Source of the DNA: Aeoliella mucimassa
GTDB lineage: Bacteria > Planctomycetota > Planctomycetia > Pirellulales > Lacipirellulaceae
DNA: 64,000 nt
Assembly: GCF_007748035.1 (NCBI RefSeq)
Contig: NZ_CP036278.1
Location: forward strand, 6,076,001-6,140,000
Direction: 5' to 3'
The translations under genes were made by a program, and so were the position numbers. Below, one piece after another: positions 39,966-55,461 of this stretch (position 1 is its first letter; the number at the start of each line of letters is the position of its first letter). Under the pieces are notes generated by a model. That model saw only the letters and a list, made by a program, of their open reading frames with translations, searched no databases and had not been told where the DNA came from.

Positions 39966-42221
39966 CTACTTGATGAACAACATTTCCTGGTAGGTCGGCA
40001 GCGGCCACAGGTCGTCGGCAACGAAGCCTTCGAGCTTGTCGGCGTAGGTGCGAACCTTGTTCATCAACGGCAACACCGAGTCGCAGCAGTGACGCGACTC
40101 AGCGAGCAAATCGTCCGACTCCCCTTCGGCCAGCGAGGCTTCCAGTTCGGCGATCGAATCCTGAAGCTCCTTGACCAATTCGGTCATGGCATCCAGGGTG
40201 TTGGTATCGAACTCGTACCCGAGCATCTTCAGGTTGGTGCACGTTGCAGCCAGCTCGTTTTGGTAACGAATCGCAGCAGGGAAGATCATGGTCTTGGCGA
40301 TCTTGATCGTCAGCTTGGCTTCCACGCCGATCGTCATGCAGTACTGCTCGAGGTAGGTATCGAGACGGCTGGCGAGCTCACGCTCCGACAGCACGTTGTA
40401 CTTGCCGAACAGATCGATGATGTCCTGGTTCTTCAACACAGGCAAGGCGTCGGCCGAGGTCTTCAGGTTCAGCAGACCACGCTCTTCGGCCTCTTTGTGC
40501 CACTCTTCGCTGTAGCCGTCGCCGTTGAAGATGATCGCGCCATGCTCGTTCATGATCTCGGTGAGCAGCTTCTGCAGCTCGCCGTGCAACTTCTCGGGAT
40601 CGCCACCAGTGGCTTCTTCCAGACGGGTTGCACAGTAGTCGAGCGACTCGGCGACGATGGTGTTCATCGCCACGAGCGGGCCAGCGATCGATTGGTTCGA
40701 ACCAACCGCACGGAACTCGAACCGGTTACCAGTGAACGCGAACGGGCTCGTACGGTTACGGTCGCCAGCATCCTTTGGCAGCGGCGGCAACACGTCGACA
40801 CCAACGGTCAGCGTACCCTTGGGAATCGACGAGCTAGCACCACCAGCCTTAATTTGCTGGAAGACGTCGGTGAGCTGATCGCCCAGGAAGATCGAGATGA
40901 TCGCTGGAGGAGCTTCGTTCGCACCCAACCGGTGATCGTTGCTCGCCGAAGCGACAACCGAACGGAGCAGGCCTTGGTACTTGTGTACCGCACGAATGAC
41001 CGCACCGCAGATCAGCAGGAACTGAGCGTTATCGTGCGGGGTGTCGCCTGGATCGAGCAGGTTGCCTTGCGACGAGCTGCCCATCGACCAGTTGACGTGC
41101 TTACCCGAGCCGTTGACGCCAGCGAATGGCTTTTCGTGGGTCAGGCAAACCATGCCGTACTTCTCAGCCACTCGGCGAAGCGTGGTCATGGTGAGTTGCT
41201 GATGGTCGGTCGCCAGGTTGGCGAATTCGAACATCGGAGCAATCTCGTACTGACCAGGAGCCACTTCGTTGTGACGGGTCTTTACGGGGATACCGAGCTT
41301 GAACAGTTCGCGTTCGGCTTCGAGCATGAAGGCCAGCACGCGCTCGGGAATCGCACCAAAGTAGTGATCGTCGAACTCCTGGCCCTTCGGAGGTGCAGCA
41401 CCAAACAGCGTACGACCAGCGTTCAGCAAGTCGGGGCGGGAGAAGTAGAAGTTACGATCGATCAGGAAGTATTCCTGCTCGGGACCAGCGGTCGACGAAA
41501 CCAGACTGCCGTCGGTGTGACCGAACAGCTTCAGGATGCGCTGGGCCTGTTGATTCAGGGCCTGCATCGAACGTAGCACTGGAGTCTTCTTGTCGAGTGC
41601 TTCGCCGGTCCACGACACGAACGCGGTGGGAATGCAAAGCGTGGTGCCGTTGTCGTTTTCCAGAATGTAAGCGGGGCTCGTCACGTCCCAGACCGTGTAA
41701 CCACGAGCTTCGAACGTGACCCGAATACCGCCGGTAGGGAAGCTCGAACCGTCGGGCTCGCCTTGAATCAGCTGCTTGCCCGAGAACTCGGCGAGCGCGG
41801 TTCCATCGTCGTCGGGAGCCAGGAAGCTATCGTGCTTCTCAGCGGTCAAACCGGTGAGCGGGTAGAACACGTGAGCGTAGTGAGTCGCGCCCTTGGAGAT
41901 CGCCCAGTCCTTCATGGCAGCGGCCACAACGTCGGCCACCGAGGGGTCGAGCTTCTCGCCTGCTTCCATCGTGCGGAGCAGCGCCTTGTAAACCGGCTTT
42001 GGGAGCCGCTTCTTCATGACCGACTTCGAGAACACATTGGCGTTGAACAGGTCGCCAGTCGAGGTGTCACGGAAGTTCATCGGCGGCGAGCTGGGCTTGT
42101 AGTTCGTGACTGCCGAAATAGCCGCCCTGCGAGCCGAGTCATACGATGGCGAGGCACTGTTCGAAGAAGCAGTCAATCCACTACCGTTGCGACTTGTCTT
42201 GTCTTTATAAGCTGTATCCAT
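39966..42221 (-). CDS. glnN: Glutamine synthetase type III
   Basis: A 751-residue GSIII enzyme (the large, about 700-residue class), making glutamine from glutamate, ammonia and ATP. Characteristic pieces: [56 protein letters not shown]-type segment (here [20 protein letters not shown]), [20 protein letters not shown] and the ATP/glutamate region [20 protein letters not shown]. The ATG at 42221 is behind a GGGA site; an earlier TTG (42236) would add five residues. No glnB or regulatory gene adjoins. Present alongside carA and the CBS protein it belongs to central nitrogen assimilation. The long antisense ORF over this gene is a shadow. Confidence 0.94.
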
Positions 42222-42656
42222 CCGAAGTTCCCACAATTAAAGAGAGATCGAGCTGACCTACTGCAGCGAGTGCGCACGGTCGAGAAAATGCCTCCGTGCA
42301 CGAGAAACACCACTCCATAGGTGCGAAAAGTAACTAAACATGCAAATTTCGTACCGGCAAAACCTCGACGACTGCTGTAAACCACATAACCCGACAGCTC
42401 TCCCACTGAAATGCTGAATTTGACCGCATAATTGCAACTCGCTGCCCGAGAAACTTTCTTACGCCAATCGGGGGGGTGCCGACTGCTGCCTGCTTTCTTA
42501 GCACCCGATGCAAGCACACCCAGCATGCTGACTTCGGAAACCTGCAACACCGACCTCTAGTGTGATTATTCCCCGCGAAAGGCGAGTCGCCGTACCGCGC
42601 GGTTTTTGGTCAATGCTCGCCTGCCGCTGGGTCAAAACGAGTCTGTCTCCTGGGGA
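42222..42656. other. Gap upstream of glnN
   Basis: 435 bp without a credible gene. It should contain the glnN promoter. A loop-less palindrome ACCGCGCGGT followed by five T residues sits near 42595-42610, but no plus-strand gene precedes it. I see no sigma-54 -24/-12 signature I can defend. Confidence 0.45.
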
Positions 42657-43877
42657 TTAACATCGGAGCTGCCGGGTTCGGAGCACGATCGCCAGCAGCG
42701 CGGTGCTGACGAACAAGGCAAGTGCCTGCGGTTCGGGCACCTGGGCGATGTAGAGCGAAGCATCGGGAGAGAAGTAGTCGTTGTTATCCACCGAGGTGGA
42801 GTTCAGATCGAAACTAAATGGCGAGCCATCCTGCAACACGCCCGACAGCGTGACATCGCGTTCGGTAAGCTCAAAGGGCTCTTCCAATCCCAATCCTTCG
42901 ATCGGAATGCCATCCAGGTAGAACTCACTACCGACGAGCACAAGCGTTCCCTCATAGAGTTTGAACGCGTCTCCAAAGGTACCGCCAGAGATGAGTACGT
43001 CGTAGTCCAGGTCGCCTTTCAGCGCGGCCAGCGGAGGCTCGAAGGCTGCACTCGCTTCGTCGGAATCGGGACTGACGATTCGAGGCCCATGGGGCAAGAT
43101 GGTGAAATTGTCGCCAAACGTACCACCAGAGATAGTCGCTGTACTCGAGGTAAACACTCTCATGTTGTTCCCAATCGTTCCACCCGTGATGGCAACCTCG
43201 TTGAGGAAGAACACGACAGCATTGTTGCCGATTGCCCCGCCCGAGATATTCAAGGAACTCTTGCTAGCATTGAAGTCGTCCCCGATACTCCCACCTCGAA
43301 GGTAGAGCTCACTTGCTTCTAGATCAAAGTCGCTGTCGATCATCCCTGCGGAAATATCGACGGTGGCTTCGTTAGCGCGCAAGCGAGTTCCGATACTCCC
43401 CCCCGACATCTGCAACGTCGTACCGGCCCCTAAATTGCAAGCGTAGTCGATCGAACCTCCTTTTACGTCCAGCAAAGTACCTTCTCTCACCCGCACATAG
43501 GGACCTATCGTGCCATCCTCTAAATGCACGGTGCTGCCGTAGACATAGAAATTCGACCCTATCTCCGCTCCGTCGATGTTAACGGTTGTCCCGGGAAAGA
43601 CCCTGGGGTTGTACCCTACAACGCCACCAGTCGCATTGATTTCGATATGATTGTCTTCCAGGCCGCTATCGCCGGCAGTAAGCCAATCGCCGATGGTGCC
43701 CCCCTCCGAGAGATTAAGCTGCGTATCGGAAGCAATCGTATAAAGATTGCCAATGGTGGTCGGTGGGACGTTGATGACGTTCGCAAAGTTGCTCGGATCG
43801 GTTTGCCCCCAGACAGAGGACGAGAACGCGACCAAAACGAACACTACCGAACAAGACGCTCGCAGTTTGGCAACCAT
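42657..43877 (-). CDS. PEP-CTERM surface protein with beta-helix-like GGSIG repeats
   Basis: 406 residues from the ATG at 43877, starting a Sec signal (residues 1-24). The body is a run of about 15 short repeats of the type SGGSIGxxxxxxxxxVxI (for example LQMSGGSIGTRLRANEATVD, LNISGGAIGNNAVVFFLNEV, ATISGGTFGDNFTI), spaced by about 20 residues as in right-handed beta-helices. The C-terminus VPEPQALALFVSTALLAIVL then RTRQLRC is a PEP-CTERM sorting signal, so an exosortase probably anchors or exports it. It starts 89 bp after the membrane gene of the radical-SAM operon on the same strand, so read-through is possible. The protein may be a structural surface component; no enzyme motif is seen. Confidence 0.8.
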   Translation of the reverse strand: MVAKLRASCSVVFVLVAFSSSVWGQTDPSNFANVINVPPTTIGNLYTIASDTQLNLSEGGTIGDWLTAGDSGLEDNHIEINATGGVVGYNPRVFPGTTVNIDGAEIGSNFYVYGSTVHLEDGTIGPYVRVREGTLLDVKGGSIDYACNLGAGTTLQMSGGSIGTRLRANEATVDISAGMIDSDFDLEASELYLRGGSIGDDFNASKSSLNISGGAIGNNAVVFFLNEVAITGGTIGNNMRVFTSSTATISGGTFGDNFTILPHGPRIVSPDSDEASAAFEPPLAALKGDLDYDVLISGGTFGDAFKLYEGTLVLVGSEFYLDGIPIEGLGLEEPFELTERDVTLSGVLQDGSPFSFDLNSTSVDNNDYFSPDASLYIAQVPEPQALALFVSTALLAIVLRTRQLRC

Positions 43878-43966
43878 GGTTTCCCCCAATGAGTCGCGAC
43901 AAGGAATAGACCACCCTGGCCGCATTGTAAATTGGTAACTGTCGTCGTAGTACCTCTTTCCTGTGT

Positions 43967-45019
43967 TTACCTCACCTTTTTCGCGGTGGCCATTTCGCTG
44001 GCGATCCGCCACGCGCTGGCGGCGATGCGGGCGACGGTGGCGTCGCTCGTGTGATAGCCCGACTTCTTGGTAGTGTGCTGCCGGATCACGATTACGTCGA
44101 CGTCGTCTTCTGATTTGCCCTCGACGGTCATCCTTCCGACTGGGGTTCCGCCGCTCAGCCAGTCGAGCAGCCCCGTTTGTCGCTTCTTCTTCGGGTTCAT
44201 CCTGACCTGGCACTCACGCAGCGGCTGGCCTAGTAGACCAAACGACTTTTTCGCGACGATCACCGCGTACAAGTAGGGATATTTGGTGCCTTGCACATCG
44301 TTGATGGCCACCTGCAATTGAACGCCGAGCAGGTCTTCGGGACCATCGGGAAAGCGAATAAACACCCGGGCGCCGATGGGGGTTTTCGTCTCCCCTTTGC
44401 CAGCGAGTTGAAACATCGGCTGAATCTGGCAGGGTGGATCCTCGTAAGGCTCGATCGCCCGCAATGCGGTTTCGAGAGCTTGGATCTCTTGATTGAGCGA
44501 CACCGGGCGCCAACCGCGTTTGGTGCCGACAAACCAATGAGGCAGCAACAGCACCGCCGCATCAAGCCCGATGACCGGCGCCCACATGCTGGTCGACCGA
44601 TCGGCCGCTACGGCGGCCACAGCCAGCAGCACAGCTCCTCCGGTGATCGCCAGACCAAAGGCCCCCAGTGGACTGGTGATATCGACAAACGCTTGGTCCC
44701 AGCTCGATACATTGCTTTGCAATAGTCGCGCGGTGGTGAATTGCTCGCGAGTGGTTTTTTCCCAAGTGCCGAACCGCACGTTGTAGCGCGGCTTCAGATC
44801 GTACCCGCGAACCAGCAGCATGAGCGTGCCGAATAGGAGCATCGGCAACGTAATCACGAGCACCGACTCGAGCGAGTCGGCTGGCCAGCACATCTGCATC
44901 AGCAGGCCAGCAGCAATGATTCCAGCCGCCCAGAGCAGCCGCTGATTGTAGTTGATTTGCGACATCAGATAGAACTGCAAGAGATGTCGCTGGTCGCGAT
45001 CGGGGAGTACTCGACTCAT
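43967..45019 (-). CDS. Four-helix membrane protein, third gene of the radical-SAM/SACH operon
   Basis: 350 residues from the ATG at 45019, which overlaps the radical-SAM stop as ATGA. The first half has four membrane helices (LLWAAGIIAAGLLMQMCW; VLVITLPMLLFGTLMLLVRG; FGLAITGGAVLLAVAAVAAD; APVIGLDAAVLLLPHWFVG). The second half, about 170 residues, is a soluble, probably cytosolic domain (RVFIRFPDGPEDLLGVQLQV, YLYAVIVAKKSFGLLGQPLR, DVIVIRQHTTKKSGYHTSDA). No family is recognised. Translational coupling to the radical-SAM gene makes it a component of the same system, for example a partner of the SACH membrane protein or a reader of the modified tail. A longer ORF to 45370 lies inside the upstream gene. 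Confidence 0.75.
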   Translation of the reverse strand: MSRVLPDRDQRHLLQFYLMSQINYNQRLLWAAGIIAAGLLMQMCWPADSLESVLVITLPMLLFGTLMLLVRGYDLKPRYNVRFGTWEKTTREQFTTARLLQSNVSSWDQAFVDITSPLGAFGLAITGGAVLLAVAAVAADRSTSMWAPVIGLDAAVLLLPHWFVGTKRGWRPVSLNQEIQALETALRAIEPYEDPPCQIQPMFQLAGKGETKTPIGARVFIRFPDGPEDLLGVQLQVAINDVQGTKYPYLYAVIVAKKSFGLLGQPLRECQVRMNPKKKRQTGLLDWLSGGTPVGRMTVEGKSEDDVDVIVIRQHTTKKSGYHTSDATVARIAASAWRIASEMATAKKVR

Positions 45020-46677
45020 CGTAGCCAGCCTTTCACGCGTTCGATCACATAGCCGGGCGTCATTCGCCGGCGGTTGGCTTTGTACAATTCGCTGTAGCCC
45101 ATGCCGCTCCAGTAGAGCGTGCAAGCTCCTTGGCATAGCTCGAAGTGTTCGCAAGTTTGGCAGATAGGATGGGCTTGCCGTTTCTTCTTGTAGAACTGAG
45201 CGTCTTTGCCGAACCAGACGTTGTCGAACCCTTCGTCGAGCACGTTGCCGACCCCGCGGGCGAAGCTCGAGCAAGGCAGCACCTCGCCCGATGGCGACAC
45301 GTGCACCAGTCCATCGCAAGCCGCGCACCCTTTGTTGCCGAGCCCATGAGCGATGGGATTGAAGATGCAAAACGGAGTCGGCGAGTACCAGTGAAAATCG
45401 ATGCCAATCTGTTCGGCATGCTGCTTGGCTTGCAGCACGAAATCGCCGATGCGAGTGTACGAGATCTTGATCTGCTCGTGCCGAGCCAGCCGCGGCGTGC
45501 CGGTCGGGATGATGTGGTTCATCGAAACGTGCGGCAATTCCAGCGACTTGGCCAAGTCGAGAATGCCAAGCAGGTGCTCGGCGTTCTCTTCGCAGATGGT
45601 GGTATTCGTATGCACGTGCAAACCTGCATTGCGGAGGTTCTCGATGCCTCGCATCGTCTTCGCAAACGAACCAGGGCGCTGCGTCAGGGCTTCGTGCACC
45701 TGGGCATTCGGCCCTTCGACACTCACTTGGGCCGAAGTCAGTCCGGCCGCGGCCAGTTTGTCGACGTATTGCTTCGACGAACTGGTGATGCCGTTGGTGA
45801 TGAGGTTGACCCGCATACCATTGTCGCGGGCATGGCGAATAAACATCGGCAGCTCAGGCCGCAAGGTCGCCTCGCCGCCGGTGAAGCTGACGCTCGGCAC
45901 CTTGCCGACCTGGGCGATCTGCTCGATCACCCGCATCACCTCGTCGGCGGTCATCTCTTCGCCGACGGGATCACGCTGCGGATGGCGATTCTTCCACCAA
46001 TCGAATTGTCGCCAGAACTTCCACCAGTTGCGATGCCGCTCGCGGGCCAAATTGCCCGGCGTGGCGTCGGGCGTTCCGCACCCCGCGTAGCAGAACGTGC
46101 AAGCCAGGTTGCAACGGTAAGTAATGGCGATTTCGCTCAGCACAGGGTAGCGGGTGAAGCTCCCCTCGAACGGAGTGGTATTCGTGGTCGGCCGCCCCCG
46201 CCCGTCTCCCAGGCGATTCGCGAGCAGGTCGCGAACGTCGCAGAAGAACGTATGCATCTGATAGATGCGCTCGGGGTGGTTACCAGCACCAACCGACAAC
46301 GCAATTTGCCGGGCAGGCTCTCCCTCGAGTGCTCGATGCAGCAACGTGAGTCCCGAGCGGTTCAACTGAAACACCTCGGTGGGCATTTTGATTAGCACGC
46401 CATCGTCGGGACGCACGCGAACATACGCCCGCACGTTGGCTACGAACTCGTCGATCCAGTCAAGGTGCTCTAGCTCGGTGCCGAACTGCTCGCCGTCGGC
46501 CGGGTACCAGTGGGGTTGCTCCTGCTCGCTGGCACATCCGCATCCGGTGGCCGATTGCCCGACGATCGGCAATGGCTCGCTCGCAGGATCAACGTAAGCC
46601 GACGCCTGTTCGACCAGCCGCTCGAGCTGGGCGTCTTCTTCCTGATTGATGATGGGTAAGCTCAGGTCTTGCGACAT
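45016..46677 (-). CDS. Radical SAM/SPASM enzyme with PqqD-like N-terminal segment
   Basis: 553 residues. Residues about 84-156 look like a PqqD-type RiPP recognition element (DDGVLIKMPTEVFQLNRSGL, TLLHRALEGEPARQIALSVG). The radical SAM cluster motif CxxxCxxC is at Cys189, Cys193, Cys196 (RCNLACTFCYAGC), followed by SFTGGEATLRPELPMFI and the NLITNGIT strand. The C-terminal SPASM region supplies extra cluster ligands at Cys437, 451, 454, 469, 506, 509, 515 and 519 (CAACDGLVHVSPSGEVLPCS, CQTCEHFELCQGACTLYW). SPASM enzymes modify peptides, for example forming thioethers or C-C links. Its ATG directly follows the TAA of the SACH-repeat gene, whose Cys-rich tail is the obvious candidate substrate. 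An N-terminal GCGCAS adds further cysteines. Confidence 0.9.
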   Translation of the reverse strand: MSQDLSLPIINQEEDAQLERLVEQASAYVDPASEPLPIVGQSATGCGCASEQEQPHWYPADGEQFGTELEHLDWIDEFVANVRAYVRVRPDDGVLIKMPTEVFQLNRSGLTLLHRALEGEPARQIALSVGAGNHPERIYQMHTFFCDVRDLLANRLGDGRGRPTTNTTPFEGSFTRYPVLSEIAITYRCNLACTFCYAGCGTPDATPGNLARERHRNWWKFWRQFDWWKNRHPQRDPVGEEMTADEVMRVIEQIAQVGKVPSVSFTGGEATLRPELPMFIRHARDNGMRVNLITNGITSSSKQYVDKLAAAGLTSAQVSVEGPNAQVHEALTQRPGSFAKTMRGIENLRNAGLHVHTNTTICEENAEHLLGILDLAKSLELPHVSMNHIIPTGTPRLARHEQIKISYTRIGDFVLQAKQHAEQIGIDFHWYSPTPFCIFNPIAHGLGNKGCAACDGLVHVSPSGEVLPCSSFARGVGNVLDEGFDNVWFGKDAQFYKKKRQAHPICQTCEHFELCQGACTLYWSGMGYSELYKANRRRMTPGYVIERVKGWLR

Positions 46678-48549
46678 TTAGTGGGCTCCTCCGCTCACAC
46701 AGGCACTATGACAGGCTGAATGGCACGCGCTATGACACGCACTGTGACATGCCGAATGGCACGCGCTATGGCAGGCACTATGACACGCCGAGTGACACGC
46801 GCTATGGCAAGCCGACGCGGCGTACTGGCTGGCCAGGTCGTTACCGCCCGACAGAAAGTAGGAGTAGCTGTGATCGGCCAGCCCGTGGGTGTTGGGCACC
46901 GCCGCGGCCAGGGTCGACACTTGTTGCTCGCGAGTCGACCAACTGCTGTCGTGATGGTGGTACGTGTGAAAGTACGGGTAGTACACCCGGCGGCGATCGA
47001 ACACGCGCCCCGACCGCACCGGCCGGCGCGGAGTCTTGCGCCCCGATGGTTTGCGTTTCGCCTGAGTGGCTGCTTCCCAGAACTCGTCCGACTCGGCCAG
47101 GGCTTTGCGGAACTCCTTTTCGATCTCTTTCTGGTAGTGCTCCTTGGTCGCTTCCAGATCGCAGTCCCAGGCTTTCTCCTGAATGCCCGCGGTGATTTGC
47201 ACCACGAGTTTCTCGGCCAGATCCTCGGCCAGGAATCCATCGTCCTGCACGCAGTCGAGGATCGTCTGATGGTAAGCGGTGAGGTCGTCGCCGGTGATGC
47301 CGGTTTTCTCGAGCCGAATGGGATTCTCGCCGATCACGTGCACGATGCCGAGCTGTTCGAGTTCCAAGATCATCACCGCAATCAAAGTCTTGAGCGGTAC
47401 ATCGCACACGTAACCGACCTCGACCGCGTTAAGCTTGGCGATCTTGCCATTCTTGCGGAAGCTCTTCAGCTCGATCGATGGAACCTGCCAGTCGTCGCGA
47501 TCCCAGCTTACATGCTCAAGTTGCTTGGCCGCTTGCTGCAGCGAGCGATGCTTGATGAGCACGATGGCCGCTGCCCCGCCGCCGAGTAGCACCAGCATCA
47601 CAATCGCCAGCCCACGCCCTGAGTTTCGGTCGACCGAGTAACGGGGCGAGGCCGATTGCCGAGAGTAGCTTGGCGTGGAACGTGGTGGCGGCTGATTCGA
47701 CGTAGCCGGCGTTTCGGCCACCAATCCCGAAGCGGGCGGCGGCTGGCTCGACCGTGTCGGCTTGGTGCGTAGCGACATGCCCGCGAACGTATCGGCCGGC
47801 ACGTAGTACGTGAGCGGGAACTTCTCCTTGGTGCTCAAGTTTTCTTTGTGCGCTCGTACCACCAGGTAGCGAGGTCCATCGGTCGGGGCGTCGGGCGTGG
47901 TGACTCCGGTGCCGCGGCGGCCGAGGTACGACAGCTTGTACCGTTTGTTCACAAATGGCTCGGTCCGCAAACCGAGTTCGGCCGCCTGCTCAAACGTGAG
48001 TTCGTCCTGATCGATCTCGATCGGCCACCTCACCAGCACGGTTTCGTGCTCCAGCGGTTCGTCCCACTGCACCGGTGCCCACCCGAACACGACCAGCTCG
48101 CCCAATTCAGCCGACGTGGTTCGCTGCAAATGCCCAGCAGCAGCTACGTCGGTAAAGTACGTCAGCACAAACGTGATCTCGCCCGGCCCAAACCGCTGAC
48201 CATTGGCGAGCAGCACGTCGTATTTGTCGCCGAGATTTTTCAGGTCGAGCTGATAGCTCTTGCCCGATCCCTCGACCACCGCCCCGCAGCCGGGTTGGTG
48301 CCAGTCGATCCGCCCGCGTTCGCCCTGAAAGTAAAAGCCCCCCATGGTGCCGCGTTGCACCTGCCAGCGAACTTTGTACTGCACCATCGCCTTTTGGTTC
48401 GGCGCGAGGGCAATTTCGACTTCCACCCACTTCAGGTCGGCCGTCACCTGGGCCTGACCGCGGGTGGGGGCAACCAGCACGACGACTATCGCCAGCGCAA
48501 AGAGGGACAAAACGGTCCTGCGATCAGCACCCCGGCGTCGACTACTCAC
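46678..48549 (-). CDS. Two-pass membrane protein with C-terminal SACH tandem repeats (candidate radical-SAM substrate)
   Basis: 623 residues. A signal peptide or helix (12-32, TVLSLFALAIVVVLVAPTRG) leads into an extracytoplasmic domain (33-310, beta-rich, ending in a Ser/Pro linker), one membrane helix (312-332), then a cytosolic part. This layout, and the segment NAVEVGYVCDVPLKTLIAVM with ILELEQLGIVHVI, resembles DUF2207-type predicted membrane proteins. After a basic linker and YYPYFHTYHHHDSS, residues 579-618 are nine perfect Ser-Ala-Cys-His units plus Ser-Ala-Cys-Val, ending SGGAH: ten cysteines and nine histidines in 40 residues. Predicted topology puts these in the cytosol, where the adjacent radical SAM enzyme (next codon after the stop) could modify them. 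Metal binding is the other obvious idea. No matching described system comes to mind. Confidence 0.85.
   Translation of the reverse strand: MSSRRRGADRRTVLSLFALAIVVVLVAPTRGQAQVTADLKWVEVEIALAPNQKAMVQYKVRWQVQRGTMGGFYFQGERGRIDWHQPGCGAVVEGSGKSYQLDLKNLGDKYDVLLANGQRFGPGEITFVLTYFTDVAAAGHLQRTTSAELGELVVFGWAPVQWDEPLEHETVLVRWPIEIDQDELTFEQAAELGLRTEPFVNKRYKLSYLGRRGTGVTTPDAPTDGPRYLVVRAHKENLSTKEKFPLTYYVPADTFAGMSLRTKPTRSSQPPPASGLVAETPATSNQPPPRSTPSYSRQSASPRYSVDRNSGRGLAIVMLVLLGGGAAAIVLIKHRSLQQAAKQLEHVSWDRDDWQVPSIELKSFRKNGKIAKLNAVEVGYVCDVPLKTLIAVMILELEQLGIVHVIGENPIRLEKTGITGDDLTAYHQTILDCVQDDGFLAEDLAEKLVVQITAGIQEKAWDCDLEATKEHYQKEIEKEFRKALAESDEFWEAATQAKRKPSGRKTPRRPVRSGRVFDRRRVYYPYFHTYHHHDSSWSTREQQVSTLAAAVPNTHGLADHSYSYFLSGGNDLASQYAASACHSACHSACHSACHSACHSACHSACHSACHSACHSACVSGGAH
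46699..46815 (-). repeat. 12-bp coding tandem repeat encoding SACH
   Basis: Nine and three-quarter direct units of 12 bp. Synonymous third positions vary between units (Ala GCC/GCG/GCA/GCT, Ser TCA/AGC/AGT/TCG, Cys TGT/TGC, His CAT/CAC) while the protein repeat is perfect, which points to selection on the peptide and not to recent slippage. Confidence 0.95.
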
Positions 48550-53754: not shown

Positions 53755-55461
53755 CTAGCGAATCCCCAGCGATTTGATCCGCGAGGCCAGCGTGGTTGGC
53801 TTGACTCCCAAGCGAGCGGCCGCCCCGTTTTTGCCATACACTTTGCCGTCCGAATGCTCTAGTGCGCGACGAATGTTGTCGGCCTCGCGGTCCCGCATTT
53901 CGGCCATCGTGTAGATCGGCTCGCTGGAGTTTGCCCCCTCGCGTTTGGATGCGTGCTTCGGGCTTCGCGACCCCGTGCGTGCTGGCTTTGGCAGGTCGAA
54001 CGTCAGCCGACCGTTCGAGGCGACGATCGCTGCCCGCTCGATCACGTGCTGCAGCTCGCGGACGTTGCCAGGCCAGTCGTACTCCTGCAACTGCTTGACG
54101 TTGCCGAGCGTCAGCCGCAACTCAGCGCGGCCCAACTGCCGAGAGTAGCGGGCGAGAAAATGTTCGGCCAGCAGCCCGACGTCCTCCAACCGGTCGCGGA
54201 GCGGTGGCACTTCAATCGGAAACACGCTAAGCCGATAGTACAGGTCTTGTCGAAACCGTCCTTCGAGTGCTTCCTGTCGCAACTCACGGTTGGTTGCTGC
54301 GATGATTCGCACGTTCACTTTGCGCGTCCGCTCTTCGCCGATGCGTTCGAGTTCCCCTTCTTGCAGCACCCGCAACAGCTTCGCTTGCAGGTCGAGAGGA
54401 ATTTCGCCGATCTCGTCGAGAAACAGAGTGCCGCCGTCGGCCAGTTCGAACCGCCCTGCCCGATCGCGAAGCGCCCCGGTGAATGATCCCTTGGAATGCC
54501 CAAAGAACTCGCTCTCGTACAGCTCCCGCGGAATCGCTGCGCAGTTTACCTTGATCAGCGGACGATCGCGTCGCGAGCTACGGCGATGCAACTCGCGGGC
54601 GACCACCTCCTTGCCGGTGCCGCTTTCGCCGAGGATGAGCACCGACGATTCGGTGGGTGCCACCAGATTGATTTGCTGAGCGATCGTATCGAGCGCTGGA
54701 CTGCGACCGACAAGATCGCCAAACGCGGTGCCGGCCACTTCTTCGCGAAGGTATTCGTTTTCGAGTTCCAGGTGCGACTTGAGTTCCTCGATTTCTTCGA
54801 TCGCCCGCGCGTTGGCAATCGCTGCCGCCAGGTGATCGGCAATCATGTGCAACCATTCCTGGCACGATTGCTCAATCGGCTCGCGAGCGAAGATGGCGAG
54901 CACGCCGAGAGTCTCGCCGCGATACACGAGCGGCAAGCCCGCTAAGGCGACGATTTGCTGCCGATGAATCCACTCGGGGCTGACGATCCACTCATGGCCT
55001 TCTTGCAGCGTGTTGATCAGCATCGACTCGCCGGTCGAGGCGATCCGCCCGATCTTCCGCCCCCCTTGGGGGAAGCGGCGGAACTTGCCATCCGCGCGCG
55101 TCCAATGTTCCTGCTCGTCGGTTGCCGAGTTGCCGTAGCTGGTTACCAGGTGCAGGCATCGGTCTCGCTGGTGGCACTCATCGGCCAGCGCACACTTGCC
55201 GCAATCGCCGTGGAGCGGCGGGCGCAACAGCCAGATCCGCGCGAGGGCGATCGTTGAACGCTGGGCCAACAACCGTACCGCGGCCGGCAAAAGCTCAGGC
55301 AGATGGTGCTGCCCCGACAAGGCGAGCAAGATCTGCTTGGGGTCACCAAAGATGGCATTCGTTTCAAGCAACGGACCGCTCCAAGCCAACGACAATTCGT
55401 GTTCACGCAACGATTTGTCGTTTATACACGATATTTCGTGCGCCCGCAACAATCCTGGCAA
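53755..55461 (-). CDS. Sigma-54-dependent activator (NorR/FhlA-like) with GAF-type sensor
   Basis: Up to 568 residues; the true start is uncertain (TTG at 55461, later TTG codons possible). The N-terminal half looks like a GAF sensor and contains a Cys cluster (Cys87, 90, 96, 102; [16 protein letters not shown]) suited to metal or redox sensing. The AAA+ part has the Walker [16 protein letters not shown], the sigma-54 contact loop as GSFTGA (usually GAFTGA), Walker [14 protein letters not shown] and the arginine finger segment [21 protein letters not shown] Fis-type helix-turn-helix ends the protein ([20 protein letters not shown]). It is divergent from an AhpD-like gene that has a sigma-54 promoter, which it presumably activates. 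Confidence 0.9.

Follow-up and report, generated by a model that had tools for sequence, protein, structure and literature searches.

A membrane protein with a SACH-repeat tail and the adjoining radical SAM/SPASM enzyme: a candidate target/enzyme pair in Planctomycetota and Spirochaetota

The window analysed here is a 64,000-nucleotide stretch of the Aeoliella mucimassa genome (NZ_CP036278.1, positions 6,076,001 to 6,140,000). Reading of its open reading frames and comparison with homologues identified a gene for a 623-aa membrane protein with a GTG start (46678..48549, minus strand; all genes and protein features of the window named below lie on this strand). Hydropathy and a structure model indicated a signal peptide or hydrophobic segment at the N-terminus (residues ~1-35; 48445..48549), followed by a predicted extracytoplasmic beta domain, modelled with pLDDT mostly above 90 (residues 34-253; 47791..48450), a transmembrane segment detected by hydropathy (residues 311-335; 47545..47619), and a predicted cytosolic domain modelled with confidence from about residue 370 (residues ~346-500; 47050..47514). 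A third hydrophobic stretch was detected at residues 388-407; because the model folds it as a helix and a strand into a well-modelled domain, one transmembrane segment and a cytosolic tail were counted. The cytosolic C-terminal tail proposed by an earlier, sequence-only reading of this DNA is therefore also predicted by hydropathy, charges, and the model, with the caveat that the tail would face outside if residues 388-407 did span the membrane. The tail itself was modelled as a low-confidence helix, which was given no weight.

Fold matches of the membrane protein chiefly covered the ectodomain, whose modelled fold resembled that of an oligosaccharyltransferase-complex subunit, which we take to be ribophorin I/OST1, and the N-terminal domain of M1-type aminopeptidases (Z 15.6, rmsd 3.1, 184 residues aligned). 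This likeness between folds, one of them predicted, carries no functional implication. A PDB sequence search returned no solved structure similar to the membrane protein, and no Pfam or NCBIfam model matched it above cut-off. The sequence-only reading had described its layout as DUF2207-like. Six of the 17 family members matched PF09972 (DUF2207) at E<=0.1, with 16.3, 16.7, 19.7, 20.6, 22.0, and 23.9 bits, and distant members scored 20.4, 19.4, and 14.8 bits; the comparison stood to that extent, but all six missed the gathering cut-off of 24.4 bits and the window's own protein gave no match. These scores weakly suggest that DUF2207 is a sub-threshold relative. TIGR04222 had no match in the window protein or anywhere in the host genome, and the equivalent of the cytosolic domain in one distant relative matched it weakly (13.6 bits, E 0.037; cut-off 43). 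Full-length members of the family, with inferred starts, measured 539-1023 aa.

The repeat tail, defined by sequence, tail comparison, and codon analysis, spans residues 579-618 (46696..46815) and consists of nine perfect SACH units (residues 579-614) and one SACV unit (residues 615-618), 40 residues altogether. As read previously, the codons differ between units: the nine SACH units are encoded by eight distinct DNA sequences, and Ser codons of both the TCN and AGY sets are used. The repeat had been taken for the C-terminus itself; it does lie near the end, but not at the very end, because tail comparison showed that SGGAH and the stop codon follow SACV (46681..46695). Tails of relatives ended in SGGAH, SGGPH, SGGSH, SGGSF, SGGSR, SSGH, SSF, or SNF. 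When the 6.6-Mb host genome was searched with a DNA pattern for two adjacent SACH units, the pattern was found only in this tail, and the control gave 0 matches.

Tail composition was compared in 38 tails (G930, counted among the 39 genomes described below, was left out), using the 380 Cys residues within the last 70 residues. Ala preceded Cys in 350 cases, and Cys was followed by His (297), Val (44), Phe (20), or Tyr (19). A wider range of residues stood before Ala (Ser 298, Asp 32, Asn 17, Gly 12, Gln 10), and the core of the repeat is therefore x-A-C-H. A Val unit closed the array in 32 of the 38 tails, the other six ending in SACHSGGSF, and one distant Spirochaetota group had its ACH units in three blocks, each with an ACV at its end. 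The NCBIfam model TIGR04117 (Syntroph_Cxxx), named 'Cys-Xaa-Xaa-Xaa repeat radical SAM target protein', resembles the tail in its four-residue Cys repeat. It matched the window tail at 21.9 bits (E 1.4e-4), short of the curated cut-off of 50, and only residues 573-617 were aligned within its 98-position profile; three of the 17 members matched at E<=0.1, the window's score being the best.

Codon comparison of six Planctomycetota members revealed 313 synonymous versus 24 nonsynonymous differences over 520 codon pairs in the tail, compared with 2254 synonymous versus 3541 nonsynonymous differences over 7703 codon pairs in the body of the same proteins. Between the window and the Spirochaetota members, a 36-codon stretch of the tail retained 89% residue identity and the body about 30%. 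These results support selection on the tail peptide, in line with the sequence-only reading.

The TAA stop codon of the SACH gene (46678-46680) directly precedes the ATG (46677) of a gene encoding a 553-aa enzyme (45016..46677), so that the two genes abut as had been reported from the sequence. The CX3CX2C cluster motif (Cys 189, 193, and 196; 46090..46113), a fourth Cys beside this motif (Cys 200), the SPASM cysteines (451, 469, 506, 509, 515, and 519; 45121..45327), and Cys 437 were invariant in 15/15 enzymes. PF04055 and PF13186 matched all 15 and exceeded their cut-offs in the window enzyme, which was assigned by sequence to the radical SAM/SPASM superfamily. Among the 25 of 78 NCBIfam matches listed, all lay far below cut-off (best 133.6 versus 500 bits); models of His-Xaa-Ser enzymes also stayed below theirs (HxsC4, 104.7 versus 500 bits; HxsC, 62 versus 267.9). 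The best PDB sequence matches were SkfB and then PqqE, SuiB was the top Foldseek match, and BlsE, heme-pathway enzymes, and viperin were among the family or structure matches. The structural matches also included anSME, an enzyme that acts on sulfatases. Plasmid records yielded 363 matches to the enzyme, all below 60% identity; the eight listed comprised five PqqE, one MftC, and two unnamed radical SAM proteins.

The N-terminal region of the enzyme was examined for the PqqD-like segment described in the sequence-only reading. In the enzyme model (mean pLDDT 71.8), residues 69-152 (46222..46473), modelled within the enzyme, form a helix, three strands, and helices, which we take to be the element order of RRE/PqqD domains. 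The top fold alignments were with SkfB (Z 23.1, 341 residues) and SuiB (Z 22.6, 372 residues), at 13-18% identity. Among 50 rows, the SkfB row and three SuiB rows aligned from model residues 73-82 to the N-termini of those chains (Z 21.7-23.1, 341-375 residues aligned), three NifB rows started at residues 82-97 with 214-226 residues aligned, and the alignments with PqqE, viperin, and anSME began only at about residue 174. When the N-terminal slice of the family was aligned with three PqqD proteins using hhalign, E was 0.0013 (probability 18.7%), compared with 0.13-0.69 for seven control slices. The Pfam PqqD model matched six of the 15 enzymes weakly and gave no match in the window's own enzyme. 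Taken together, the model, the fold alignments, and the weak sequence match support a predicted PqqD/RRE-like domain at the N-terminus, so the segment noted earlier is retained.

Counting the window's own genome, 39 Planctomycetota and Spirochaetota genomes carried a SACH-tailed member of the family, and the enzyme gene came after the tail in all 39. This total combines the sampled genomes, the loci of a named-genome scan, and the window; sampled and named-scan genomes were distinguished by handles and coordinates, G443, G453, and G909/G452 were counted once, and G013 and L054 were treated as one genome. The tail gene of G930 was split over two contigs, and its end adjoined the enzyme gene. 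In none of the 39 tail-bearing genomes was the repeat kept without a nearby radical SAM gene, a combination that the sequence-only reading had set against its own proposal. Among 97 close genomes (host included), the sole other holder was G013, whose protein showed 61% identity, eight SACH units, and a SACVSGGAH end, with an enzyme fragment at the contig end; G055 was dropped because it had a tail-like repeat only. In the class sample of 397 genomes, the host alone gave a full match, and 13 others with short matches were dropped: 11 matched in the tail region, and G423 and G133 matched elsewhere with stop codons. G055 and 12 of the 14 class loci were read, those of G423 and G133 being left out, and Cys repeats were present in all except L047. 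Four class loci (L039, L043, L046, and L049) encoded proteins rich in Cys that contain SSCY-type units and, early in the sequence, a GCHH motif; their bodies were unrelated.

The named-genome scan returned 17 loci, five from Planctomycetota and 12 titled as or grouping with Spirochaetota (L064, titled just 'bacterium', was counted with the latter group); one of the loci, L063, comes from Rectinema subterraneum. Best-segment identity to the window protein was 48-58% for the Planctomycetota loci and 31-34% for the Spirochaetota group. The protein ended in a SACH-type repeat in 17/17 loci, and the enzyme gene then followed in 17/17. The partner was a radical SAM enzyme in each of these loci; the other neighbours were compared only among themselves.

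The sequence-only reading had suggested a co-occurrence test with profiles. Two profiles, A2 built from 17 membrane proteins and A3 from 15 enzymes, were used to search 296 Spirochaetota and 294 Planctomycetota genomes. At E<=1e-3, A2 matched 17 Spirochaetota and 24 Planctomycetota genomes, of which 12 and 14 remained after dropping 5 and 10, respectively. The Spirochaetota rejects were low in complexity or had no ORF match (G528, G571, G595, and G629) or consisted of a body fragment running off its contig (G679); the Planctomycetota rejects were weak and did not read as the SACH membrane-protein family (G774, G775, G828, G846, G859, G863, G881, G895, G896, and G992). One of the 14 Planctomycetota genomes, G1014, was kept as a relative and not counted as SACH. 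At E<=1e-60, A3 matched 12 Spirochaetota and 14 Planctomycetota genomes, identical to the A2 sets; because we chose this limit ourselves and scored four or five candidates per genome, the co-occurrence is no proof of absence elsewhere, and since the genomes are related, the counts are not fully independent.

In the two samples, the enzyme match overlapped the membrane-protein match or began no more than about 110 bases from its end in all but three genomes: G637, at 489 bases and with an enzyme frame that is broken; G930, where the contigs are split; and G1014, where the enzyme lies in front. The genes overlapped by 1 or 4 bases in 5 of 18 loci rows, the start being unplaceable in most others. 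One copy per genome was found in 16/16; second entries in G455 and G451 represented an assembly split and a broken fragment. Pairwise identities of the membrane protein and the enzyme were correlated at r = 0.97 (105 pairs from 15 loci), as they should be if the two genes are inherited together. A tree built from 25 bodies, with the tails removed, placed L074, from the Spirochaetota sample, within a Planctomycetota clade; either the cassette was transferred or the contig may be mis-binned. An ORF of 1184 aa in L069 was rejected as a natural gene fusion, an assembly N shifting the frame inside the tail. The constant gene order in the 39 tail-bearing genomes and the identical genome sets support the view that the membrane protein and the enzyme are a dedicated target/enzyme pair.

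In G1014, a cousin pair was observed (L113, 541-2280, and L153, 1336-2694), comprising a membrane protein whose layout is similar, together with a radical SAM enzyme whose gene lies in front. The cousin tail is Gly-rich with Cys-Ala repeats (GCACAGCACACACAGGGR) instead of SACH, and its enzyme scored 21.6 bits against Pfam PqqD (cut-off 23.4). The occurrence of another tail type in a distant relative, alongside a related enzyme weakly matching Pfam PqqD, supports the pairing.

A third gene of the cassette (43967..44965) encodes a 332-aa membrane protein that matched no Pfam or NCBIfam model over cut-off. Of the 17 named-scan loci, 12 had a relative of the window's protein after the enzyme gene, and relatives were also found in G864 and G476; none was found in the stretches from G598, G582, and G1014. 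Eleven loci of the Spirochaetota group shared related short ORFs immediately upstream; by eye, the N-terminal parts of these ORFs include hydrophobic stretches. Several other features were observed in the neighbourhood. Between 48762 and 49010 of the window, in a span of 250 bases upstream of the operon, AATAGATTCCCA is present six times (five copies direct and one inverted), and none occurs in the rest of the window. Across the genome this 12-mer was counted 586 times, the reversed control gave no match, and spacings of 77 and 116 bases recur among the places listed, indicating that it is a dispersed repeat element. The ORF at 42657-44213 has at its end a PEP-CTERM-like sorting signal that is weak and falls below cut-offs. 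A large ORF at 39966-42236, presumably a type III glutamine synthetase, has related ORFs near the cassette in L060, L064, and L068; this nearness may be due to chance. An ORF at 53755-55461 appeared by eye to be sigma-54 activator-like (GAF, AAA+), with relatives near the cassette in L062, L064, L067, L068, and L155. A search for a sigma-54 promoter upstream of the operon gave best sites at background level.

Several known systems share parts of this arrangement. SkfB and SuiB are the top fold matches of the enzyme, the N-terminal domain included, and SkfB is also matched by sequence profile. Their precursors are short. By the short-precursor criterion, the pair falls outside the sactipeptides and ranthipeptides, its partner being a membrane protein of 539-1023 aa. 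The enzyme resembles RRE-dependent RiPP maturases in its predicted N-terminal PqqD/RRE-like domain and in the adjoining putative target gene of all 39 genomes. The sequence-only reading had described the known radical-SAM RiPP families as using short free precursors. Radical-SAM maturases are not limited to such precursors: anSME acts on sulfatases, and QhpD is described as a radical SAM enzyme that introduces Cys-Glu/Asp thioethers into the gamma subunit of QHNDH (PMC8172795). QhpD is thus similar in forming Cys thioethers in a protein-sized target, but that target is an amine dehydrogenase subunit without a SACH repeat. Modification at many sites of one substrate is also on record: examples are the Cys-Asp links in the ranthipeptide Freyrasin, made by PapB (PMC8172795), and the short tandem repeat precursor TvgA, in which TvgB makes cyclopropylglycine (PMC9062424). 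In these cases, however, the substrates are precursor peptides.

The closest precedent found was TIGR04222. TIGR04222 membrane proteins are described to have a Cys-rich low-complexity C-proximal tail, are often encoded beside an MNIO enzyme, and have been proposed as protein-sized substrates (PMC12452194). A Cys-tailed membrane protein beside another type of RiPP enzyme has thus already been proposed, and both systems combine a large membrane protein, a Cys-rich C-proximal tail, and an adjoining RiPP-type enzyme. The TIGR04222 tails are rich in Ser and Gly, have Cys residues scattered among these, and are predicted to be periplasmic; the association is loose, 490 of 1372 genomes lacking MNIO genes (Table 3 of PMC12452194). 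In contrast, the system described here has SACH repeats, a tail predicted to be cytosolic, a radical SAM/SPASM enzyme, and strict pairing. Precedents are thus known for a protein-sized substrate and a repeat substrate, and one has been proposed for a Cys-tailed membrane protein; no description of the SACH tail/radical SAM pairing, and hence of the combination, was found in searches of open-licence PMC papers, where the letters of the repeat itself turned up in two papers as part of German wording.

We propose that the locus is a self-contained modification cassette, with the membrane protein as substrate and the neighbouring radical SAM/SPASM enzyme as a maturase dedicated to it, a reading to which we assign a probability of roughly 0.6. 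That the tail is the substrate is very probable, because a conserved tail and a RiPP-type enzyme gene adjoin and recur in two phyla. The RRE/PqqD-like domain of the enzyme would recognise the membrane protein while the tail sits in the cytosol, and the active site would work repeatedly along the Ala-Cys-His units, the ACV unit coming last in most members. The likeliest chemistry would be a thioether joining each Cys, through its sulfur, to a carbon in a neighbouring residue, of the sactionine or ranthionine type, with a change of -2 Da per link; taken as a claim about the product, a Cys thioether comes close to an even chance without reaching it. Such chemistry is known for the sactisynthase SkfB (PMC6231123) and for QhpD and PapB on Cys-rich substrates (PMC8172795). 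The flexible tail would stiffen into an array tethered to the membrane; with the His side chains left free, this array might bind or sense metal or take part in redox reactions on the inner side of the membrane, although a metal or redox role of this kind is, on balance, rather unlikely.

The strongest rival keeps the tail as substrate and changes the reaction: the enzyme could form Cys-His or C-C cross-links, oxidise or epimerise Ser, Ala, or His, or catalyse a new reaction. Related SPASM enzymes are chemically varied, and SuiB, the top Foldseek match, makes a Lys-Trp bond. TvgB, as noted, makes cyclopropylglycine in a repeat precursor (PMC9062424), and the His after Cys, or Val at block ends, is unexplained by thioether formation alone. 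Each unit is nevertheless built around Cys, and the best PDB sequence match is a sactisynthase, so that a non-thioether reaction is a serious possibility, if the lesser one. It is improbable that the tail stays unmodified and binds Cu, Zn, or Fe-S directly while the enzyme acts on a cofactor or another residue. Evenly spaced Cys and His are natural ligands, and many radical SAM/SPASM enzymes use non-peptide substrates, as BlsE, the heme-pathway enzymes, and viperin among the matches illustrate. However, strict adjacency and identical genome sets argue against this reading, as does the RRE-like domain, since RRE domains in known systems bind ribosomal substrates. Ala before Cys is also conserved beyond what metal binding alone demands; recognition by the enzyme is therefore favoured over metal binding alone. 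Attachment of haem c through overlapping C-X3-C-H motifs, which CHSACH fits, is very improbable, because haem c is attached outside the cytosol, the tail is predicted to be cytosolic, and overlapping motifs cannot all be occupied. A functionless low-complexity or repeat-slippage artefact is scarcely credible: tail-only matches elsewhere were, where read, simple satellites or other Cys-rich repeats, but this tail occurs in 39 genomes, shows synonymous change throughout, and is far better conserved with Spirochaetota than the body (89% versus about 30%).

Returning to the proposed maturation of the tail by the adjacent enzyme, we tentatively consider a wider possibility, a new class of modification on resident membrane proteins. 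A cytosolic ACH tail may acquire identical Cys-derived cross-links in a continuous chain, or a Cys/His linkage of a new type, to form a membrane-tethered metal or redox ladder common to Planctomycetota and Spirochaetota and perhaps exchanged between them, with a sister branch modifying a Gly/Cys-Ala tail likewise. If the tail is modified, radical SAM maturases would act on anchored membrane proteins, beyond free peptides and soluble subunits, and the near-perfect repeat substrate would make a new linkage unusually easy to study. Membrane proteins with a DUF2207/TIGR04222-like layout would then also have a biochemical role that can be tested.
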